From Neofamilia massiliensis (GTDB taxonomy: Bacteria > Bacillota > Clostridia > Tissierellales > Peptoniphilaceae): DNA of 64,000 nt. The stretch spans positions 778,258-842,257 of the forward strand of contig NZ_CYUJ01000002.1 in assembly GCF_001299475.1 (NCBI RefSeq), read 5' to 3'. How positions within the stretch are numbered: the stretch's first letter is position 1; each line of letters starts with the position of its first letter. The notes below the pieces were generated by a model. It worked only from the letters and a program-made list of their open reading frames with translations. It did not search any database and had not been told where the DNA came from. This document shows positions 51,337 through 60,183 of this stretch, piece after piece. The translations under genes were made by a program, and so were the position numbers.

Positions 51337-52788
51337 ATGGATAAATTAACTAGTTATAATGATTATGTTGAAAAAATAAATAAATTTGATGAATCCAGCC
51401 TTGGAAATAAGCTGGATTATACTTGGTTATTAAAAAACAGAGTTATTCCTTTTTATGAGGACAATGATTCTGTTTTTATTTTTGCCTGCAAAAGAGAAAC
51501 AAATTTAATACTGAATATTGAATATATGCTAAAAAAAGAATGCCAAGTGCATCTTATAGCAGATGAAGATTTAGATAGACTTTTAAAATATGTCGACAAA
51601 AGAGATATTTATAAATCTAATAATAAGATTAGTATTTTTAAAGTTGAAGATCAAGATGAAACAGATAACATAGAAATAATAAGATATTTAAATAATCTAA
51701 TAGAAACAGCAATTTCTAATGAGGTTTCTGATATACATATTGAGCCTCAAAAGGATAAGGTGAGAATTAGATTTAGAATTAACGGTAGACTTGTTGATAA
51801 AGACTACTTGCCTTTAGAACATCTACAAATAATTCTTACAAGAATAAAAGTTTTAGGCCGATTAGACCTCGCGGAGCGAAGGCTCCCACAAGACGGGCGT
51901 ATAACTTTTGAATACGAAAATAGAGATATAGACCTTAGAATATCTACAATTCCAACTCTTTATGGAGAGAAAGTTGTAATTAGGTTACTTGACTCGAGCT
52001 TTAAATACAATACTCTAGAAAGTTTAGGGCTTAGTTTAGATGAAATAAAGATTATTGAAAGAAATCTTCTAAAACAAAATGGTATGACTTTAGTAGTTGG
52101 ACCTACAGGGTCAGGGAAGACCACTACCATTTACTCAATTTTAAATCGTATTAATAGTGAAGAAATAAATATTACTACCCTAGAAGATCCTTGTGAATAT
52201 AAAATAGAAGGTATTAATCAAGTACAAATTAATCCTAGACAAGGTCTTAAATTTTCAAATACCTTGAAAAATATACTTCGTCAAGATCCTGATGTGATCT
52301 TTATTGGCGAACTTCGTGACCAGGAAACAGTTGAAACAGCCTTGAGGTCTGCAATAACAGGTCACTATTTACTTTCGACTCTCCATGTAAAAGATAGTGT
52401 CTCTTCAATTAACAGGCTTAAGGACATGGGAGGAGAGAACTTTCTGATTTCATCAGCCTTGAACTTAGTTGTTAGTCAACGATTAGTGAGAACTCTTTGT
52501 CCAGATTGTAAAGAAGAGGTCAGCGAAGATAAATTCAACTTAGGAATTAAAAATAGCTTTAGGGCTGTTGGTTGTCCAAATTGTATAAATGGCTATACAG
52601 GAAGAAAGGCAGTTTTTGAACTTTTAGAAATTGACGATCAGATTAAAGAAATGATTAATAAAAACAAGTCTTATTTTGAAATACTTGAATATTGTAAAAG
52701 TAAGGGTTTTAAAACAATGAGAGAAAAGCTTTTCCAAGAAGTAATAGACGGAATTACAAGTGTTGAGGAAATTATAAAAATAATTTAA
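51337..52788 (+). CDS. pilB: Type IV pilus assembly ATPase PilB
   Basis: 483 residues of the GspE/PilB family. A short N-terminal domain is followed by an N2 region (EVSDIHIEPQKDKVRIRFR, DLAERRLPQDGRI) and the ATPase with Walker A GPTGSGKTTT, Asp box, Walker B DPDVIFIGELRD and a tetracysteine zinc site (CPDC...CPNC). It powers pilus extension at the inner face. GAGGTG ribosome site overlaps the rng stop. An unusually GC-rich patch lies at 51856-51900. No pilT-like retraction ATPase follows. Confidence 0.94.
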   Translation: MDKLTSYNDYVEKINKFDESSLGNKLDYTWLLKNRVIPFYEDNDSVFIFACKRETNLILNIEYMLKKECQVHLIADEDLDRLLKYVDKRDIYKSNNKISIFKVEDQDETDNIEIIRYLNNLIETAISNEVSDIHIEPQKDKVRIRFRINGRLVDKDYLPLEHLQIILTRIKVLGRLDLAERRLPQDGRITFEYENRDIDLRISTIPTLYGEKVVIRLLDSSFKYNTLESLGLSLDEIKIIERNLLKQNGMTLVVGPTGSGKTTTIYSILNRINSEEINITTLEDPCEYKIEGINQVQINPRQGLKFSNTLKNILRQDPDVIFIGELRDQETVETALRSAITGHYLLSTLHVKDSVSSINRLKDMGGENFLISSALNLVVSQRLVRTLCPDCKEEVSEDKFNLGIKNSFRAVGCPNCINGYTGRKAVFELLEIDDQIKEMINKNKSYFEILEYCKSKGFKTMREKLFQEVIDGITSVEEIIKII

Positions 52789-52789
52789 A

Positions 52790-53992
52790 ATGAAATATAA
52801 GATAACTTACTTAGATGAAGAGTTAAATAGAAAAACTGAATATTCCAACTTGGATAAGAATCAGATAATCTATGATTTCAATCAGGCTGGCTTTAGAATC
52901 ATAAATATAGAAACTACAGTTAAGAAAAAAAAGACAACTTTAAAAACCAATGTTAAAAGGCTAAAAGTAAAAGATATATCTCAGTTTTTGAAACAGCTTA
53001 GTATTCTTCTCGATTCAGGTTTAGACTTTAAATTAGCAATAAGTATATTAAAAGACCAAGAGAAAAATAAATATTTAAAAGCAAGCCTTTATGAAATAGA
53101 TAAAAATATAGATCAAGGATATTCAATAGCTGAGGCCTTTAAAAGAACAGAAAATTTTCCTGATCTAGTTGTAGGAATAATTGAGGCAGGGGAGGCTTCA
53201 TCTAGTCTAGGAGAATCATTAAATATTTTAGCTGAATATTATGACAATGAAGAGAAAACAAAACAGATGTTAAAAAATGCCTTATATTATCCTACTATAC
53301 TTTTAATAGTGACTATGATAGTAACTATATTAATGGTTTATATAGTCTTGCCTAGATATGTAGAATTATTTTCGTATTATGATGGAATGGAATTGCCTGG
53401 TCTAACAAAGAGGTTATTAAATACTTCTAATTTTTTACTTAATAAAGGATGGATATTGCTTTTAGCTATTATTGGACTTGCTGCTTTAATAAAAAAAGCG
53501 CTGCCGAAAAATACTAAACTTTGGTTTTCTAAAGCCAGACTATCATATCCTTTTATAGGGTCTTACATTTTATCTTATGAGATACAAAGGTTTTCAGGTA
53601 TTTTTGCCTTATTAATAGACTCTGGAATTGAAACTTTAGAATCTATTAATAAGGCTGCAAAATCTATAAACAATATTTATCTTAGAGAAAAGTTGTGTTG
53701 TTTAAATAAAGATATTTTAGAGGGGCATACTTTGTATGAGACTTTTTCTAAAATTGAAATCTTACCTCCTATGTTTATAAATTTAATTAACGTAGGAGAA
53801 TTATCTTCAAGTTTATCAAAAACTATGGAGATATCTTTTAATTACTATAAGAATATTGTTAGTGAAAAATCAAAAAAATTAACATCTTTATTTGAACCCT
53901 TAATTATTATTCTAGTTTCTCTTATAGTTGGAACTGTAGTAGTAGCCATTGCCTTACCAATGTTTTCTTTGGTAAATTTAGTAAATTTTTAA
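52790..53992 (+). CDS. pilC: Type IV pilus inner-membrane platform protein PilC
   Basis: 400 residues of the GspF/PilC family: two repeated cytoplasmic helical domains (KDISQFLKQLSILLDSGLDF and RFSGIFALLIDSGIETLESI) and three membrane segments (about 168-190, 213-230, 368-390). It anchors the PilB motor and the pilin assembly site. Starts one base after pilB with no visible Shine-Dalgarno, so coupled translation is expected. Confidence 0.93.
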   Translation: MKYKITYLDEELNRKTEYSNLDKNQIIYDFNQAGFRIINIETTVKKKKTTLKTNVKRLKVKDISQFLKQLSILLDSGLDFKLAISILKDQEKNKYLKASLYEIDKNIDQGYSIAEAFKRTENFPDLVVGIIEAGEASSSLGESLNILAEYYDNEEKTKQMLKNALYYPTILLIVTMIVTILMVYIVLPRYVELFSYYDGMELPGLTKRLLNTSNFLLNKGWILLLAIIGLAALIKKALPKNTKLWFSKARLSYPFIGSYILSYEIQRFSGIFALLIDSGIETLESINKAAKSINNIYLREKLCCLNKDILEGHTLYETFSKIEILPPMFINLINVGELSSSLSKTMEISFNYYKNIVSEKSKKLTSLFEPLIIILVSLIVGTVVVAIALPMFSLVNLVNF

Positions 53993-54003
53993 AGGAGTTT
54001 ATT

Positions 54004-54390
54004 ATGAAAAAAATGAAAAGAAAAGTTAAAGGTTTTACATTAGTTGAGTTAGTTATTTGCATAGCTATTATTGCTATATTAGTGTCAATAGCAATTCCTC
54101 AGTATAACAAAGCTAGACTTTCAGCAATAGTTGCAACTCATAACTCCAATGTTCAATCTATTAAAAGTGCTGCAATCTTAACGAGAATGGAAGATGAAAA
54201 AGTAGAGATTGATAAAGATTCTGTTTCAAAAAATATTGAAGGAGGAAAACTTCCTGACATAAACAAGGCTATAAAAGAAGCAACAGGAGTATCAAATTGG
54301 AATATTTCTGAAGATAAGGAAAGTGGAAATATTATTATTGAACCAGGTTTAGTTAAATTTGATGGAAGTAAAATAATAAAGGTAGATTAA
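54004..54390 (+). CDS. Type IV prepilin, probable major pilin
   Basis: 128 residues. Leader KKMKRKVKG, cut before F of FTLVELVICIAIIAILVSIAIPQY, with Glu5 for assembly. The short globular part is Lys/Glu rich. The consensus leader, strong AAAGGAG ribosome site and position directly after pilC suggest it is the major subunit (PilA or ComGC type). The TAA stop overlaps the presumed start of the prepilin peptidase by one base. Confidence 0.88.
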   Translation: MKKMKRKVKGFTLVELVICIAIIAILVSIAIPQYNKARLSAIVATHNSNVQSIKSAAILTRMEDEKVEIDKDSVSKNIEGGKLPDINKAIKEATGVSNWNISEDKESGNIIIEPGLVKFDGSKIIKVD

Positions 54391-54826
54391 AATAGAAAGA
54401 TTAGTTATAGTTTTTGAACTTATTATATTAATAGCAATAATAATTGAGGATGAGAAGGGATATGAGATTTCTCTTTATAAACTGGTCTTATTATTTTTTA
54501 TAAGCATAGTTAAAATCTTTGTTTATAAGTTAGAATTTTCTTTAGAAACTTTTTTGTTTGCTAATTGTTTATATGTTTTAATTTATCTACTAGCTAAGGG
54601 AAATTTTGGCTTTGGAGATGTAATTTTAAATGGAATTCTTGCCCTTAATTTCTCAAATCTTTGGTCTTATTTTAAATTTTTTACTTTAACTTTTTGTATA
54701 GGATCAGTTATTTCCTTATTAGCCTTTTATTTAAATAAAGTAAGTTTTAAAAGTAAGGTTCCTTTTGCTAAATATATTGTTATTGCATATTTATTAACCA
54801 TGCTAATAGGAGGTTATTTTGTTTAA
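54386..54826 (+). CDS. Small prepilin peptidase (A24), start codon AUU or AUA
   Basis: The frame is open from 54386 to the TAA at 54824-54826 and codes for about 146 residues, but its first 168 bases hold no ATG, GTG or TTG. The first conventional codon, TTG at 54554, would delete the first catalytic Asp. With the upstream part the A24 pair is complete: Asp22 in EDEKGYEIS (the DxxxxxI pattern) and Asp78 in FGFGDV (GxGD). AAAGG at 54378-54382 could serve ATT 54386 (overlapping the pilin stop) or ATA 54392. The N-terminal methylase domain of PilD is absent. Confidence 0.75.
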   Translation: MKIERLVIVFELIILIAIIIEDEKGYEISLYKLVLLFFISIVKIFVYKLEFSLETFLFANCLYVLIYLLAKGNFGFGDVILNGILALNFSNLWSYFKFFTLTFCIGSVISLLAFYLNKVSFKSKVPFAKYIVIAYLLTMLIGGYFV

Positions 54827-55577
54827 TAAAAGAAAAAGCTATTTGTTAAATTATATAGATGGATCAGCATTGAAACTAGAAAATGAAACTGGTGAAGAAA
54901 TATTTAAGTGCGAAATCTATAAAGATTCAAGCAGATTAGTTGATTCTGACCAGCTGGAATATTTATTAAAAAAGACTTTATCTACCATAGATAGTAAGTC
55001 AAACTTAGTAGTGAGAGTTTCCTCTGCCAGTAATATCTTTAGATTTGAAAAGGCAAGTGGGTTAAAGGAGACAGATTTAGATAGTTACTATACTTATAAT
55101 ATTGATAAAATTATGCCTTTTAATAGGGAAGGTTTTTTACTAAAATATAATTATTGGAGAGAATACTTTTTAGTTTATGGTATTGATAAGGATTTTATAA
55201 GTATTTTATCAAAGAAACTAACTAGCGTGTCTTTTAAAAATATTTATATCACAATATTTGCCAGCGAAGCTTTGGCATATATAGAAAATAATAAAATAGA
55301 AAATGCACTAATACTAAGGCTTGATGAAAGCTCTTTAGAATTAATAAAAGTTTTAGAAGCAGACATAGTATTTTATAAGTACAAAACCTTTGAGCCGAGC
55401 AACTATCAAAATGAGATAGAAAGTCTATCTAAAAGCATTCAAATTAATAATCAAATAGAAACTTTAATTTTTGGTGACAAAAACTTTATTAATGAACAAA
55501 AAGATTACATTGATAAAAGTTTTGGAAGAGAGTTTACCTTTAAACAATTTAACATAGAAAAATATTTTGGAGAATAA
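54819..55577 (+). CDS. PilM-like pilus alignment protein
   Basis: 252 residues without membrane segments. LVVRVSSASNIFRFEKASGL, the LKETDLDSYYTYNIDKIMPF stretch and ALILRLDESSLELIKVLEADI follow the PilM/GspL actin-like pattern (ELExAIxxExxxxIPF). It is shorter than the usual 340-350 residues, lacking the last subdomain. It would sit at the inner membrane face and bind the N-terminus of the PilN-like protein. TTG start after AGGAGG, overlapping the peptidase gene by eight bases. Confidence 0.72.
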   Translation: MFNKRKSYLLNYIDGSALKLENETGEEIFKCEIYKDSSRLVDSDQLEYLLKKTLSTIDSKSNLVVRVSSASNIFRFEKASGLKETDLDSYYTYNIDKIMPFNREGFLLKYNYWREYFLVYGIDKDFISILSKKLTSVSFKNIYITIFASEALAYIENNKIENALILRLDESSLELIKVLEADIVFYKYKTFEPSNYQNEIESLSKSIQINNQIETLIFGDKNFINEQKDYIDKSFGREFTFKQFNIEKYFGE

Positions 55578-56085: not shown

Positions 56086-57323
56086 AATTTATTATGGATT
56101 TAAGTAAGAGAGAAAAAATACTAATATACATATTAACCCTTCTCTTTATTTTATTTATATATTTAAATTTTTTTAAAGGATCAATTTTAAACACAAAAAA
56201 TACAGAGGCAGCAAGTTATATTAGTAATGATGATTATGAAATACTCTTAGCTGAGTATGATAAAGAAAAATCTAAGCTAGATAAGAACACTATTTATTTA
56301 GAAGAAGTAGAAAGTCAGTACAAAAATTTTGGAAAAAACTTAGATTTAGAAAAAATTAGCCAAGATGGTTCTATTGTTATTAATTCATTTAATATATCAA
56401 ATGTAATGATGGAAAATAAAGATGATTTAAAAGTTTTTTATATTGATAAAAGTCTTATTATTTCTGATACTTTGGAAAAAATAGAAAATTTTTTAAACTT
56501 AATAGTATCAAATAATGAATTATTTCTAAAAGATATTAACTTAAGTAGGATCGATGAAGATATATTTGAAGCTAACATAAAAGTAAGAGAATATACTTTA
56601 AGAGAAGTTCCTTACTCTGGAATAAACTATAAACATAACAACAATTCCGAAAATTCACTTGAAAATAAAGAAGGTTCTCTTTTATCAGCTTTATATGGCA
56701 AAGAAGAAAAGGAAACTACTATAGATTCTATCAATAACTCAAAAACTACTAGATCTACAAATAATAATAGGGAAGAAGTTGTAAATAGTGAAACTCAAAT
56801 AATTGAAGATGAAGAAGTTTTTGAAGAAAACATAGAAACTAAAGTTGAAGATAATTTAGCCTATAAGTTCATAGATGAAAATAATGAAAGTTATAATGAA
56901 AGATTAAAATTATTAGAAAAACGCTTTTATTTTAATAGTGACTTTATAAATTCAAATATAGAAAATTTATCCGATATTTCAAATATAGATAAACTTAATA
57001 AAGAAAATACTAATGAAATACTGGAGTTCGATTTTAGTAATAAACTTATTTTTTCTGATTTTGATATTAAAATTGATTATGATATATATAAAATATCCTT
57101 TGAAATAAATGGACCAAAAGATTTAAGTGGAAGCATATATTTTTTAGATGAAAGCATGACCCTATATACTGTTGACTTTTTAAAATTTGCTGATGGTTAT
57201 GAAAATATTGAAATCTTTCTTGATAAAACTTACAAATATCCATTAAGCTTCCAATCTATAGTTACCGATAATTATAATTGGGAAGATTTGTCTTTTAGGA
57301 ATTTAGTATTTTATGAAAGCTAG
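56082..57323 (+). CDS. PilO-like protein with a long acidic linker and extra C-terminal domain
   Basis: 413 residues. The first part (membrane helix about 12-30, coiled coil, then an alpha/beta domain ending near 180) follows the PilO/GspM pattern. A low-complexity Asn/Glu/Ser-rich linker (about 185-275) and a C-terminal domain (about 310-413) with beta-strand character (LSGSIYFLDESMTLYTV) follow, not seen in standard PilO of about 200 residues. The C-terminal domain is not recognised and may sit in the wall. It overlaps the next gene by 11 bases. Confidence 0.68.
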   Translation: MKFIMDLSKREKILIYILTLLFILFIYLNFFKGSILNTKNTEAASYISNDDYEILLAEYDKEKSKLDKNTIYLEEVESQYKNFGKNLDLEKISQDGSIVINSFNISNVMMENKDDLKVFYIDKSLIISDTLEKIENFLNLIVSNNELFLKDINLSRIDEDIFEANIKVREYTLREVPYSGINYKHNNNSENSLENKEGSLLSALYGKEEKETTIDSINNSKTTRSTNNNREEVVNSETQIIEDEEVFEENIETKVEDNLAYKFIDENNESYNERLKLLEKRFYFNSDFINSNIENLSDISNIDKLNKENTNEILEFDFSNKLIFSDFDIKIDYDIYKISFEINGPKDLSGSIYFLDESMTLYTVDFLKFADGYENIEIFLDKTYKYPLSFQSIVTDNYNWEDLSFRNLVFYES

Positions 57324-57753
57324 AAAGATTAAGGGACTTATTTTAGTAGAACTAATAATTACCATAGCAATAGTTTCAATACTAACATCATTAGTTTTAT
57401 TAAATAGTAGAAGTTTTAATAATTATTTAGAAAAACAAGAATTAAAATCTATAGTAATTAGTATAAATCAAACAAAAAACTATGCATTGTCAACAAGGCA
57501 GAGACAAAATATAATTTTTACTAATAAAATATTTAAGTCATCAGTTAATAATGAAGAAATTGAATTAAAAAAACTAGAGTTAGTAGAAGCTGAATCTAAT
57601 ACTAAAGAATTTATTTTTACAGAAAATGCCAGGCCAGCCATGGATGATAGTTTAAATCCTACTGCAGGAACTTTAGTTTTTAAAGGTAAGGACAAGTCAT
57701 ATAAAATAATATTAAGACCTGTAACAGGTAAAATAAGGATTGAAGAAAAATGA
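57313..57753 (+). CDS. Minor pilin, GspH/FimT-like
   Basis: 146 residues. Type III signal: KARKIKG then LILVELIITIAIVSILTSLVLL, cut after Gly7 with Glu at position 5 of the mature form. The globular part has strand pairs (RQNIIFTNKIFKSSV; SYKIILRPVTGKIRI) as in FimT/GspH pseudopilins. It follows the PilO-like gene and overlaps the next minor pilin by four bases. Role in priming the pilus tip is inferred from family and order. Confidence 0.78.
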   Translation: MKARKIKGLILVELIITIAIVSILTSLVLLNSRSFNNYLEKQELKSIVISINQTKNYALSTRQRQNIIFTNKIFKSSVNNEEIELKKLELVEAESNTKEFIFTENARPAMDDSLNPTAGTLVFKGKDKSYKIILRPVTGKIRIEEK

Positions 57754-58079
57754 AGATAAAATACAAGGGTTTTATTCTTATGGAAATTATAATCTCAACA
57801 TTTATTGTTTCTTTAATTGCTTTAGGGATAATGGTTAGTTATGTAAATATTAGTAATATTTATAAAAAGACTAATAGCATAGATACAATGACCCGAATAG
57901 GCAATGCAGCTATGGAAGAAACCTTAGCAGGAAAAACTTATAATAGTGAAAACGAAAAGTATCAAGTAGATATTACTGAAAATATTTATTCAAACGACTT
58001 AAGGAGAATAGAAATTACAGTGCGAAATGAGGAACTCAATGAAGATATTACATTTATTTCCTATAGAAAAAAAGATTAA
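57750..58079 (+). CDS. Minor pilin, PilV/GspI-like
   Basis: 109 residues. Leader MKIKYKG then FILMEIIISTFIVSLIALGI, with Glu5 conserved. The short globular domain contains AAMEETLAGKTY and a strand-rich end. The pattern of a methionine before Glu and the following helix resemble PilV/GspI pseudopilins. The ATG overlaps the preceding stop (ATGA), and the next pilin starts inside this gene. Confidence 0.78.
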   Translation: MKIKYKGFILMEIIISTFIVSLIALGIMVSYVNISNIYKKTNSIDTMTRIGNAAMEETLAGKTYNSENEKYQVDITENIYSNDLRRIEITVRNEELNEDITFISYRKKD

Positions 58080-58593
58080 AGGTTTCACATTAATAGAACT
58101 TTTATTTGGGATAGGAATATTATCTATTATTTTTCTTCTAATTTCATCTTTTATATTTTCATCGACTAAGTTGTCTAATAAAATTATAAAATCTAGCAGT
58201 TTAGATAGTGAAATTTATTATACTGCAGACTTTATTTTCAATGAAATTGATAAGGCAGATTATATTATAGAAAAAAAATTTACAAATAAAGTTTCTGAAA
58301 ATCAATTAGGTTTGCTTATAATAAACAAAAATCCTATAGAATATAGCCTTACAAGTTATACTTACGAAGATTCGAGAATTATTAGAAATAATATAAAAAA
58401 GAAGAGTATTGATAAAATAAGCTCTTTGGAATTCAATTCGGGGGAGTTTCATACAAATGTTTTAGTTTCAGATATAAAAAACTTCTCGGCTAATTACGAC
58501 TCTACTAATAAACTTTTAAATTTAGAAATAATAGACAAAACTGATAAAATTTTTAAATATACACATTTTATAAGAGGAGCGATATATGAATAA
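58039..58593 (+). CDS. Minor pilin, PilW/GspJ/ComGF-like
   Basis: 184 residues from ATG 58039; an ATG at 58027 is in frame but GAGGA between them favours the second. A longer leader (HLFPIEKKIKG) precedes FTLIELLFGIGILSIIFLLI with Glu5. The globular part has DSEIYYTADFIFNEIDKADYI, as in PilW/GspJ where a long helix leads to beta sheets. It overlaps the preceding pilin by 41 bases and the next gene by eight. Confidence 0.77.
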   Translation: MKILHLFPIEKKIKGFTLIELLFGIGILSIIFLLISSFIFSSTKLSNKIIKSSSLDSEIYYTADFIFNEIDKADYIIEKKFTNKVSENQLGLLIINKNPIEYSLTSYTYEDSRIIRNNIKKKSIDKISSLEFNSGEFHTNVLVSDIKNFSANYDSTNKLLNLEIIDKTDKIFKYTHFIRGAIYE

Positions 58594-59625: not shown

Positions 59626-60183
59626 ATGATATCAGCAGGAGAATTTAGAAAAGGTATAACATTTGAAATGGATGGTGACATCTACGAAGTTGTTGACTTT
59701 CAACACGTTAAACCAGGAAAGGGTGCAGCATTTGTTAGAGCTAAAATCAAATCAATATTAAATGGAACTAACAAAGAAACAACATTTAACCCAACAGAAA
59801 GATTTACTAGAGCTATTATTGAAACAAAAGAACTTCAATACTTATATACTGACGGACAATTATATTATTTTATGGATAATGAAACTTATGAACAAATGCC
59901 ATTTGAACACAGTCAAGTAGAAGATGCTATTATGTGGATCAAAGAAAATGATATGGCTTTAGTTCAATCATATCAAGGTAAACCATTTTCAGTAGCTCCA
60001 CCTAACTTTGTTGAGTTAGAAGTTACAGAAACAGAACCCGGATTTAAAGGAGATACTACATCAGGAGCTAATAAACCTGCAACTTTAGAAACAGGAGTTA
60101 CAATTAACGTTCCACTTTTTGTAGAAATTGGTGATGTGCTAAGAATTGATACTAGGTCTGGAGAATACATGTCTAGAGTTTAG
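59626..60183 (+). CDS. efp: Elongation factor P
   Basis: Relieves ribosome stalling at polyproline. 185 residues in three beta-barrel domains. The loop that enters the peptidyl-transferase centre is [10 protein letters not shown], with the Lys of PGKG; no modification enzyme is nearby. The C-terminal signature reads [18 protein letters not shown]. Strong AGGAGGT site. Confidence 0.97.

Follow-up and report, generated by a model that had tools for sequence, protein, structure and literature searches.

Here we describe a short A24 prepilin peptidase gene of Neofamilia massiliensis that has no ATG, GTG or TTG codon ahead of its first catalytic aspartate and that, judging from sequence comparison, is on balance probably translated from an AUA codon at position 54392 of the window, the whole stretch of 64,000 nucleotides that was analyzed. 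The product would be a working peptidase, the sole one found in the genome, and we regard the gene as a credible, though unproven, example of an AUA start. The features concerned are the following.

51337-52788, forward strand: gene of a PilB-type ATPase, in the same operon as the peptidase gene (Pfam T2SSE, E 1.1e-122).
52790-53992, forward strand: gene of a PilC-type platform protein (Pfam T2SSF, E 1.1e-51).
54004-54390, forward strand: prepilin gene directly upstream of the peptidase gene, with ATG 54004, the Shine-Dalgarno sequence (SD) AAAGGAG and the stop TAA at 54388-54390 (Pfam N_methyl, E 3.2e-09).
54378-54382, forward strand: AAAGG, putative SD of the peptidase gene (from the sequence; aligned spacing 6 to ATA 54392 and 0 to ATT 54386).
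54386-54388, forward strand: ATT, first codon of the open frame and the less likely start, 21 codons before the first catalytic aspartate, Asp1 (sequence, alignment, SD spacing).
54392-54394, forward strand: ATA, proposed start codon, 19 codons before Asp1 and one base past the pilin stop (sequence, alignment, SD spacing).
54392-54826, forward strand: predicted short A24 prepilin peptidase gene, 144 amino acids plus the stop TAA (Pfam A24, alignment with relatives, six-helix model, FlaK profile match).
54449-54451, forward strand: GAT, Asp1 (EDEKGYEIS), aligned in 91 of 92 A24 frames, the remaining one being cut by a contig end.
54554-54556, forward strand: TTG, first canonical start codon, downstream of Asp1; no SD, product without an A24 match at E 0.1.
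54617-54619, forward strand: GAT, second catalytic aspartate, Asp2 (GFGD), aligned in 92 of 92 A24 frames.
54819-55577, forward strand: gene that follows the peptidase gene, at the position where pilM usually lies, with a TTG start and AGGAGGT; the name pilM is by position alone, with no accepted family match.
57313-58593, forward strand: three more prepilin-like genes (57313-57753, 57750-58079 and 58039-58593), likely substrates (NCBIfam or Pfam prepilin N-terminal or minor-pilin models, partly below the cut-off).

The peptidase frame is open from ATT 54386, just behind an in-frame TAG at 54383-54385, to the TAA that ends at 54826, and it begins two bases before the pilin stop, which the ATT overlaps as ATTAA. 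Its first canonical start is TTG 54554, so that no such codon preserves the catalytic domain: the absence of a canonical start ahead of Asp1 is confirmed. Both catalytic aspartates, the second within GxGD, lie in the frame, and Asp1 would belong to the protein only if translation begins upstream of the TTG. Thus two observations of the initial annotation, that the first canonical start falls past Asp1 and that an AUU or AUA start is needed to keep this residue, are borne out by the frame and by the alignment of 92 A24 frames.

The assignment of the product to the A24 family combines several lines of evidence. Within the whole frame, residues 12-110 give a weak match to the Pfam Peptidase_A24 model (E 0.0027; 18.6 bits, under the 26.5-bit cut-off), whereas the TTG 54554 product gives none at E 0.1, and NCBIfam gives no match at E 0.1 for either the whole-frame or the TTG product. 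When the window protein is aligned with seven short relatives, all eight members match the A24 family, and the three invariant columns are both catalytic aspartates and the first glycine of GxGD; the two aspartates are also invariant in a second alignment. A profile built from 12 aligned sequences matches FlaK, a solved A24 protease, with E 0.0018. The 144-residue AUA product was modeled by AlphaFold as six helices (pLDDT 85.7, pTM 0.80), for which Foldseek returned no PDB match at E 0.001; at a second look at the Foldseek matches, presenilins and SPPL2a, which are GxGD proteases, made up the four best rows (Z 5.4-6.8, below the confidence bar of the tool), and FlaK was absent from both structure-match lists. 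The coding score of the 56 codons upstream of TTG 54554 is +9.4 nats, similar to that of the downstream part (+8.7). Because all eight aligned proteins match A24, the upstream part scores as coding and the catalytic aspartates align, the frame is more than a fortuitous ORF. Profile searches of the genome turned up no further A24 gene, although the Pfam A24 model alone misses even the window peptidase there; a second weak match (L002, E 5.3e-4), a 285-residue ORF, was rejected because by eye it does not look like A24. A search for related loci with the peptidase as the query found nothing.

The gene belongs to a type IV pilus operon, where it is flanked by a pilin gene on one side and further pilus genes on the other, and the pilin, ATPase and platform genes are intact. 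The adjoining pilin, together with the A24 alignment, upholds the earlier identification of a prepilin peptidase gene directly behind its pilin. In positions 53900-54900, five promoter-like sites were counted versus 6.6 in shuffled sequences, no terminator was detected and there was no sign of an independent transcript. Downstream of the operon lies a gene (59626-60183) that we take, from its sequence, to encode EF-P. Two congener assemblies (73% and 64% complete) yielded neither the pilus locus nor EF-P, and a reading of the missing pilus locus as gene loss was rejected, since EF-P is likewise not found there.

Among possible start codons, AUA 54392 is the most favorable. Of the 59 window genes, 43 carry an SD five or more bases long, and the aligned spacing is 4-9 in 37 of the 43, a statistic that is partly circular, as the starts were picked by the longest SD. 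The five bases of AAAGG, nine bases upstream of the AUA, are a short SD with a normal aligned spacing of 6; for ATT 54386 the spacing is 0, and values of at most 1 occur in only three of the 43 genes, possibly through misassigned starts. The initial annotation had AAAGG placed for either codon; the spacing favors AUA, the AUU being too close. A normally spaced SD before the near-cognate codon is thus present, though control codons show such pairs equally often: in the sampled frames the counts were 9 of 463 for ATA and 9 of 551 for ATT, versus 10 of 562 for GAA and 13 of 867 for AAA. SD-ATA pairs being no commoner than those of control codons, the pairing of AAAGG with ATA alone proves nothing. 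The initiation region folds less stably than shuffled versions of its sequence (MFE -4 kcal/mol, with all 200 shuffles folding at least as well).

The start position was compared in 92 A24 frames. Besides the window frame, these come from further genomes of the family, and 11 are from named clostridial loci, most of them outside the family and some truncated where the locus ends; the A24 loci retrieved cover a part of the 116 genomes that gave a match. The counts exclude three duplicates (L033, L061, L152) and matches at E 0.01 or above (L133); L039, cut by a contig end, could not be assessed, and L035, near-identical to L036, was missed by the profile. All 90 other assessable frames have a canonical start 12 or more codons ahead of Asp1, and the window has none. 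In 14 of the 16 other short frames, some of which also contain further in-frame start candidates, an ATG stands exactly 19 (four frames) or 21 (ten frames) codons before Asp1. These are the distances of ATA 54392 and ATT 54386, respectively; therefore, position alone does not separate the two codons. The initial annotation had proposed aligning homologs to see whether an ATG is replaced. Other genera have ATG, in the short frames mostly at the place of the window's ATA or ATT; for the species itself the comparison covered a single genome, the collections containing one per species. The canonical relatives all use ATG, and the rare start is, as far as seen, not conserved.

The closest counterparts in form are the Ezakiella-like short A24 peptidases (L034-L038), which likewise lack the N-terminal domain, lie directly behind a pilin-like gene and start 19-21 codons before Asp1; they differ in that all five begin with ATG, and they share 19-25% identity with the window protein. 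(L183 and L197 dropped out of the comparison of pilin neighbors.) No SD of four or more bases was found before the ATG in five of seven such short genes (L034-L038, L040, L041), which suggests that translational coupling is common for the short A24 peptidase gene. Separately, in a related genus an A24-like stretch (G054 C1:1378130-1378492, L197) contains one internal TAG, and the peptidase there may be broken.

It may be argued that the true start is ATG, and that the ATA is either a one-base error of assembly or base calling or a private mutation lowering or silencing the gene. We consider this unlikely, yet deserving of serious attention. A single transition converts ATA to ATG, the ATA sits exactly at the ATG place of four short relatives, the species is represented by a single genome, and the genome contains a GNAT gene that likewise shows ATA versus ATG in an 89%-identical homolog. 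A lineage-restricted AUA start has moreover been reported (PMC13009471) for citZ in derivatives of S. aureus NCTC 8325. On the other hand, in a 444 kb sample (the window plus 19 stretches of 20 kb) AATGGAAAG occurs 15 times versus 13.2 expected and AAAATGGAAAG four times versus 3.5, while AATAGAAAG is above expectation (27 versus 16.5). The lack of depletion among the matching ATG k-mers makes a systematic miscall unlikely despite the one ATA k-mer in excess. Nor does the rest of the peptidase gene show signs of decay in its frame, alignment or coding score. The sequencing error that had been named as a refutation is thereby weakened, and a possible error would be one of a single base.

Two further readings keep the sequence as it stands and move the start. 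An AUU start at 54386 would place 21 codons before Asp1, like 10 of the 16 ATG starts in other short frames, and its overlap with the pilin stop would fit coupled re-initiation, but the SD spacing of 0 that it entails makes it improbable. Still less credible is a pilin-peptidase fusion through a frameshift at the pilin stop, or the 90-residue product of TTG 54554 as the real protein, both of which we judge to be very improbable. In their favor, the A24 frame does open two bases ahead of the stop; against this, no slippery run was seen by eye, and no structure was predicted there, all 200 shuffles being at least as stable. The TTG product would have neither an SD nor Asp1.

Near-cognate starts are found elsewhere in the genus. 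Of 51 loci of infC, the gene of initiation factor IF3, that were examined, 49 were readable, L218 and L235 falling outside the pattern used. The apparent start is an isoleucine codon (ATT, ATA or ATC) in 48 of the 49, and in L234, the remaining one, the codon contains an N. In all three genomes of the genus this codon is ATA, after GGGGGTGTAAAC or GGGGGTGTAAAT (L129, L230, L231), the own-genome copy being L129 (C3:307530-307739, minus strand). The second gene is rny, encoding RNase Y and identified by Pfam RNase_Y_N (E 2.1e-60), whose apparent start in the own genome is ATC after the nine-base SD AAGGAGGTG (L262:12425; C2:732425). The two congeners (L291, L292) have ATC in one and ATT in the other at the corresponding place, the latter with an alternative TTG two codons further on; among the 20 other rny loci that could be read, 17 show an SD before a canonical codon, most relatives using ATG or TTG, and seven of 30 loci did not fit the pattern. 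From these sequences, rny and infC are likely precedents for a near-cognate start in the genus. That the genus keeps a small near-cognate set (infC AUA, rny AUC or AUU, peptidase AUA), through which the level or activity of IF3 would jointly tune translation, mRNA decay and pilus maturation, is a further and rather improbable reading.

Such starts do not seem to be widespread in the genome. In the same 444 kb sample, a scan of 354 frames for SDs before ATA, ATT and control codons revealed no excess of ATA or ATT; therefore, at most a few genes are concerned. Of 371 gene-like frames, 14 were picked out as candidates by coding potential, the DNA being viewed for two of them (L253, L259) and the others judged from translations. 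Both scans are blind to infC-like genes with an in-frame GTG upstream. One of the two viewed candidates is the GNAT acetyltransferase gene (L259:1301-1816; C2:541301), with ATA at the place of the ATG of its 89%-identical homolog L271 (three of 14 loci fitted this comparison) and no visible SD. Its DNA similarity to L271 begins at the ATA, and thus recombination may have left its trace at the 5' end. The other (L253:900-1130; C2, about 180.9-181.1 kb) has an intron-like end, presumably the 3' end of a group II intron by its appearance, directly before a repetitive adhesin-like frame without a start of its own.

The following mechanism could account for these observations. Ribosomes that end the pilin ORF at 54388-54390, one base before the AUA, would start the peptidase mostly by coupled re-initiation. 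Because the pilin stop is so close, translation of the peptidase is probably coupled to pilin termination, and because its own SD is short, it would depend on this coupling. The AUA would pair imperfectly with the initiator tRNA and be discriminated against by IF3, so that only a small share of pilin translation would yield peptidase, which would suit an enzyme needed in catalytic amounts. Thus the poorly used AUA start probably keeps the enzyme scarce. We infer all three elements, namely translation from the AUA, its coupling to termination and the low level through IF3 discrimination.

If this is true, annotation limited to ATG, GTG and TTG would reduce the only peptidase found for the pilus system to a dead 90-residue fragment, and the start codon would help to set the pilin-to-peptidase ratio. 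The gene would also be one more of the few chromosomal genes other than infC that start with AUA, and rny would be pointed to as a further gene with a near-cognate start, seemingly conserved in the genus.

Our literature search found no paper linking a prepilin peptidase with a non-canonical start codon, and none joining prepilin peptidase, start codon and translational coupling. A report on re-initiation at non-canonical codons (PMC4648390, seen in excerpt) concerns a eukaryotic system and was set aside, and PMC3244431, likewise seen in excerpt, yielded no information about start codons. The view of the initial annotation that AUU starts are known mainly for infC proves too narrow, given the AUU and AUA genes of Staphylococcus and E. 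coli (PMC13009471) and of Borrelia (PMC13398362), as far as the excerpts of these papers tell, as well as the AUC or AUU start of rny in the genus itself. Engineered clostridia can initiate at AUU, according to the excerpt of PMC11040787. The level of expression to be expected is indicated by S. aureus reporters: as stated in the excerpt of PMC13009471, AUA and AUU starts give about 10% of the AUG output in RPMI medium, and the AUA of ccpN gives up to 30% in BHI, a rich medium.

A close known system is infC, for which an AUA start in S. aureus was reported by ribosome profiling (PMC13009471, excerpt). It resembles the peptidase gene in having a rare isoleucine-codon start, which is ATA throughout the three genomes of the genus, and differs in that its rare start seems to be conserved across the family and has a stronger SD here, whereas the peptidase AUA comes from one genome. 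The S. aureus genes ccpN (AUA), cvfC1 (AUU) and citZ (AUA) are, like the peptidase gene, chromosomal genes other than infC with low output, and the citZ AUA is confined to one lineage, as the peptidase AUA may be. Their rare starts carry extended SDs and have experimental proof (all in the excerpt of PMC13009471), whereas the peptidase start has only AAAGG, directly behind an upstream stop, and is known from sequence. Finally, the excerpt of PMC13398362 describes the AUU start of pncA (bbe22) in Borrelia burgdorferi, where, as in the peptidase gene, annotation from a canonical start removes residues needed for activity; that case belongs to another protein family and has been proven both genetically and by structure.
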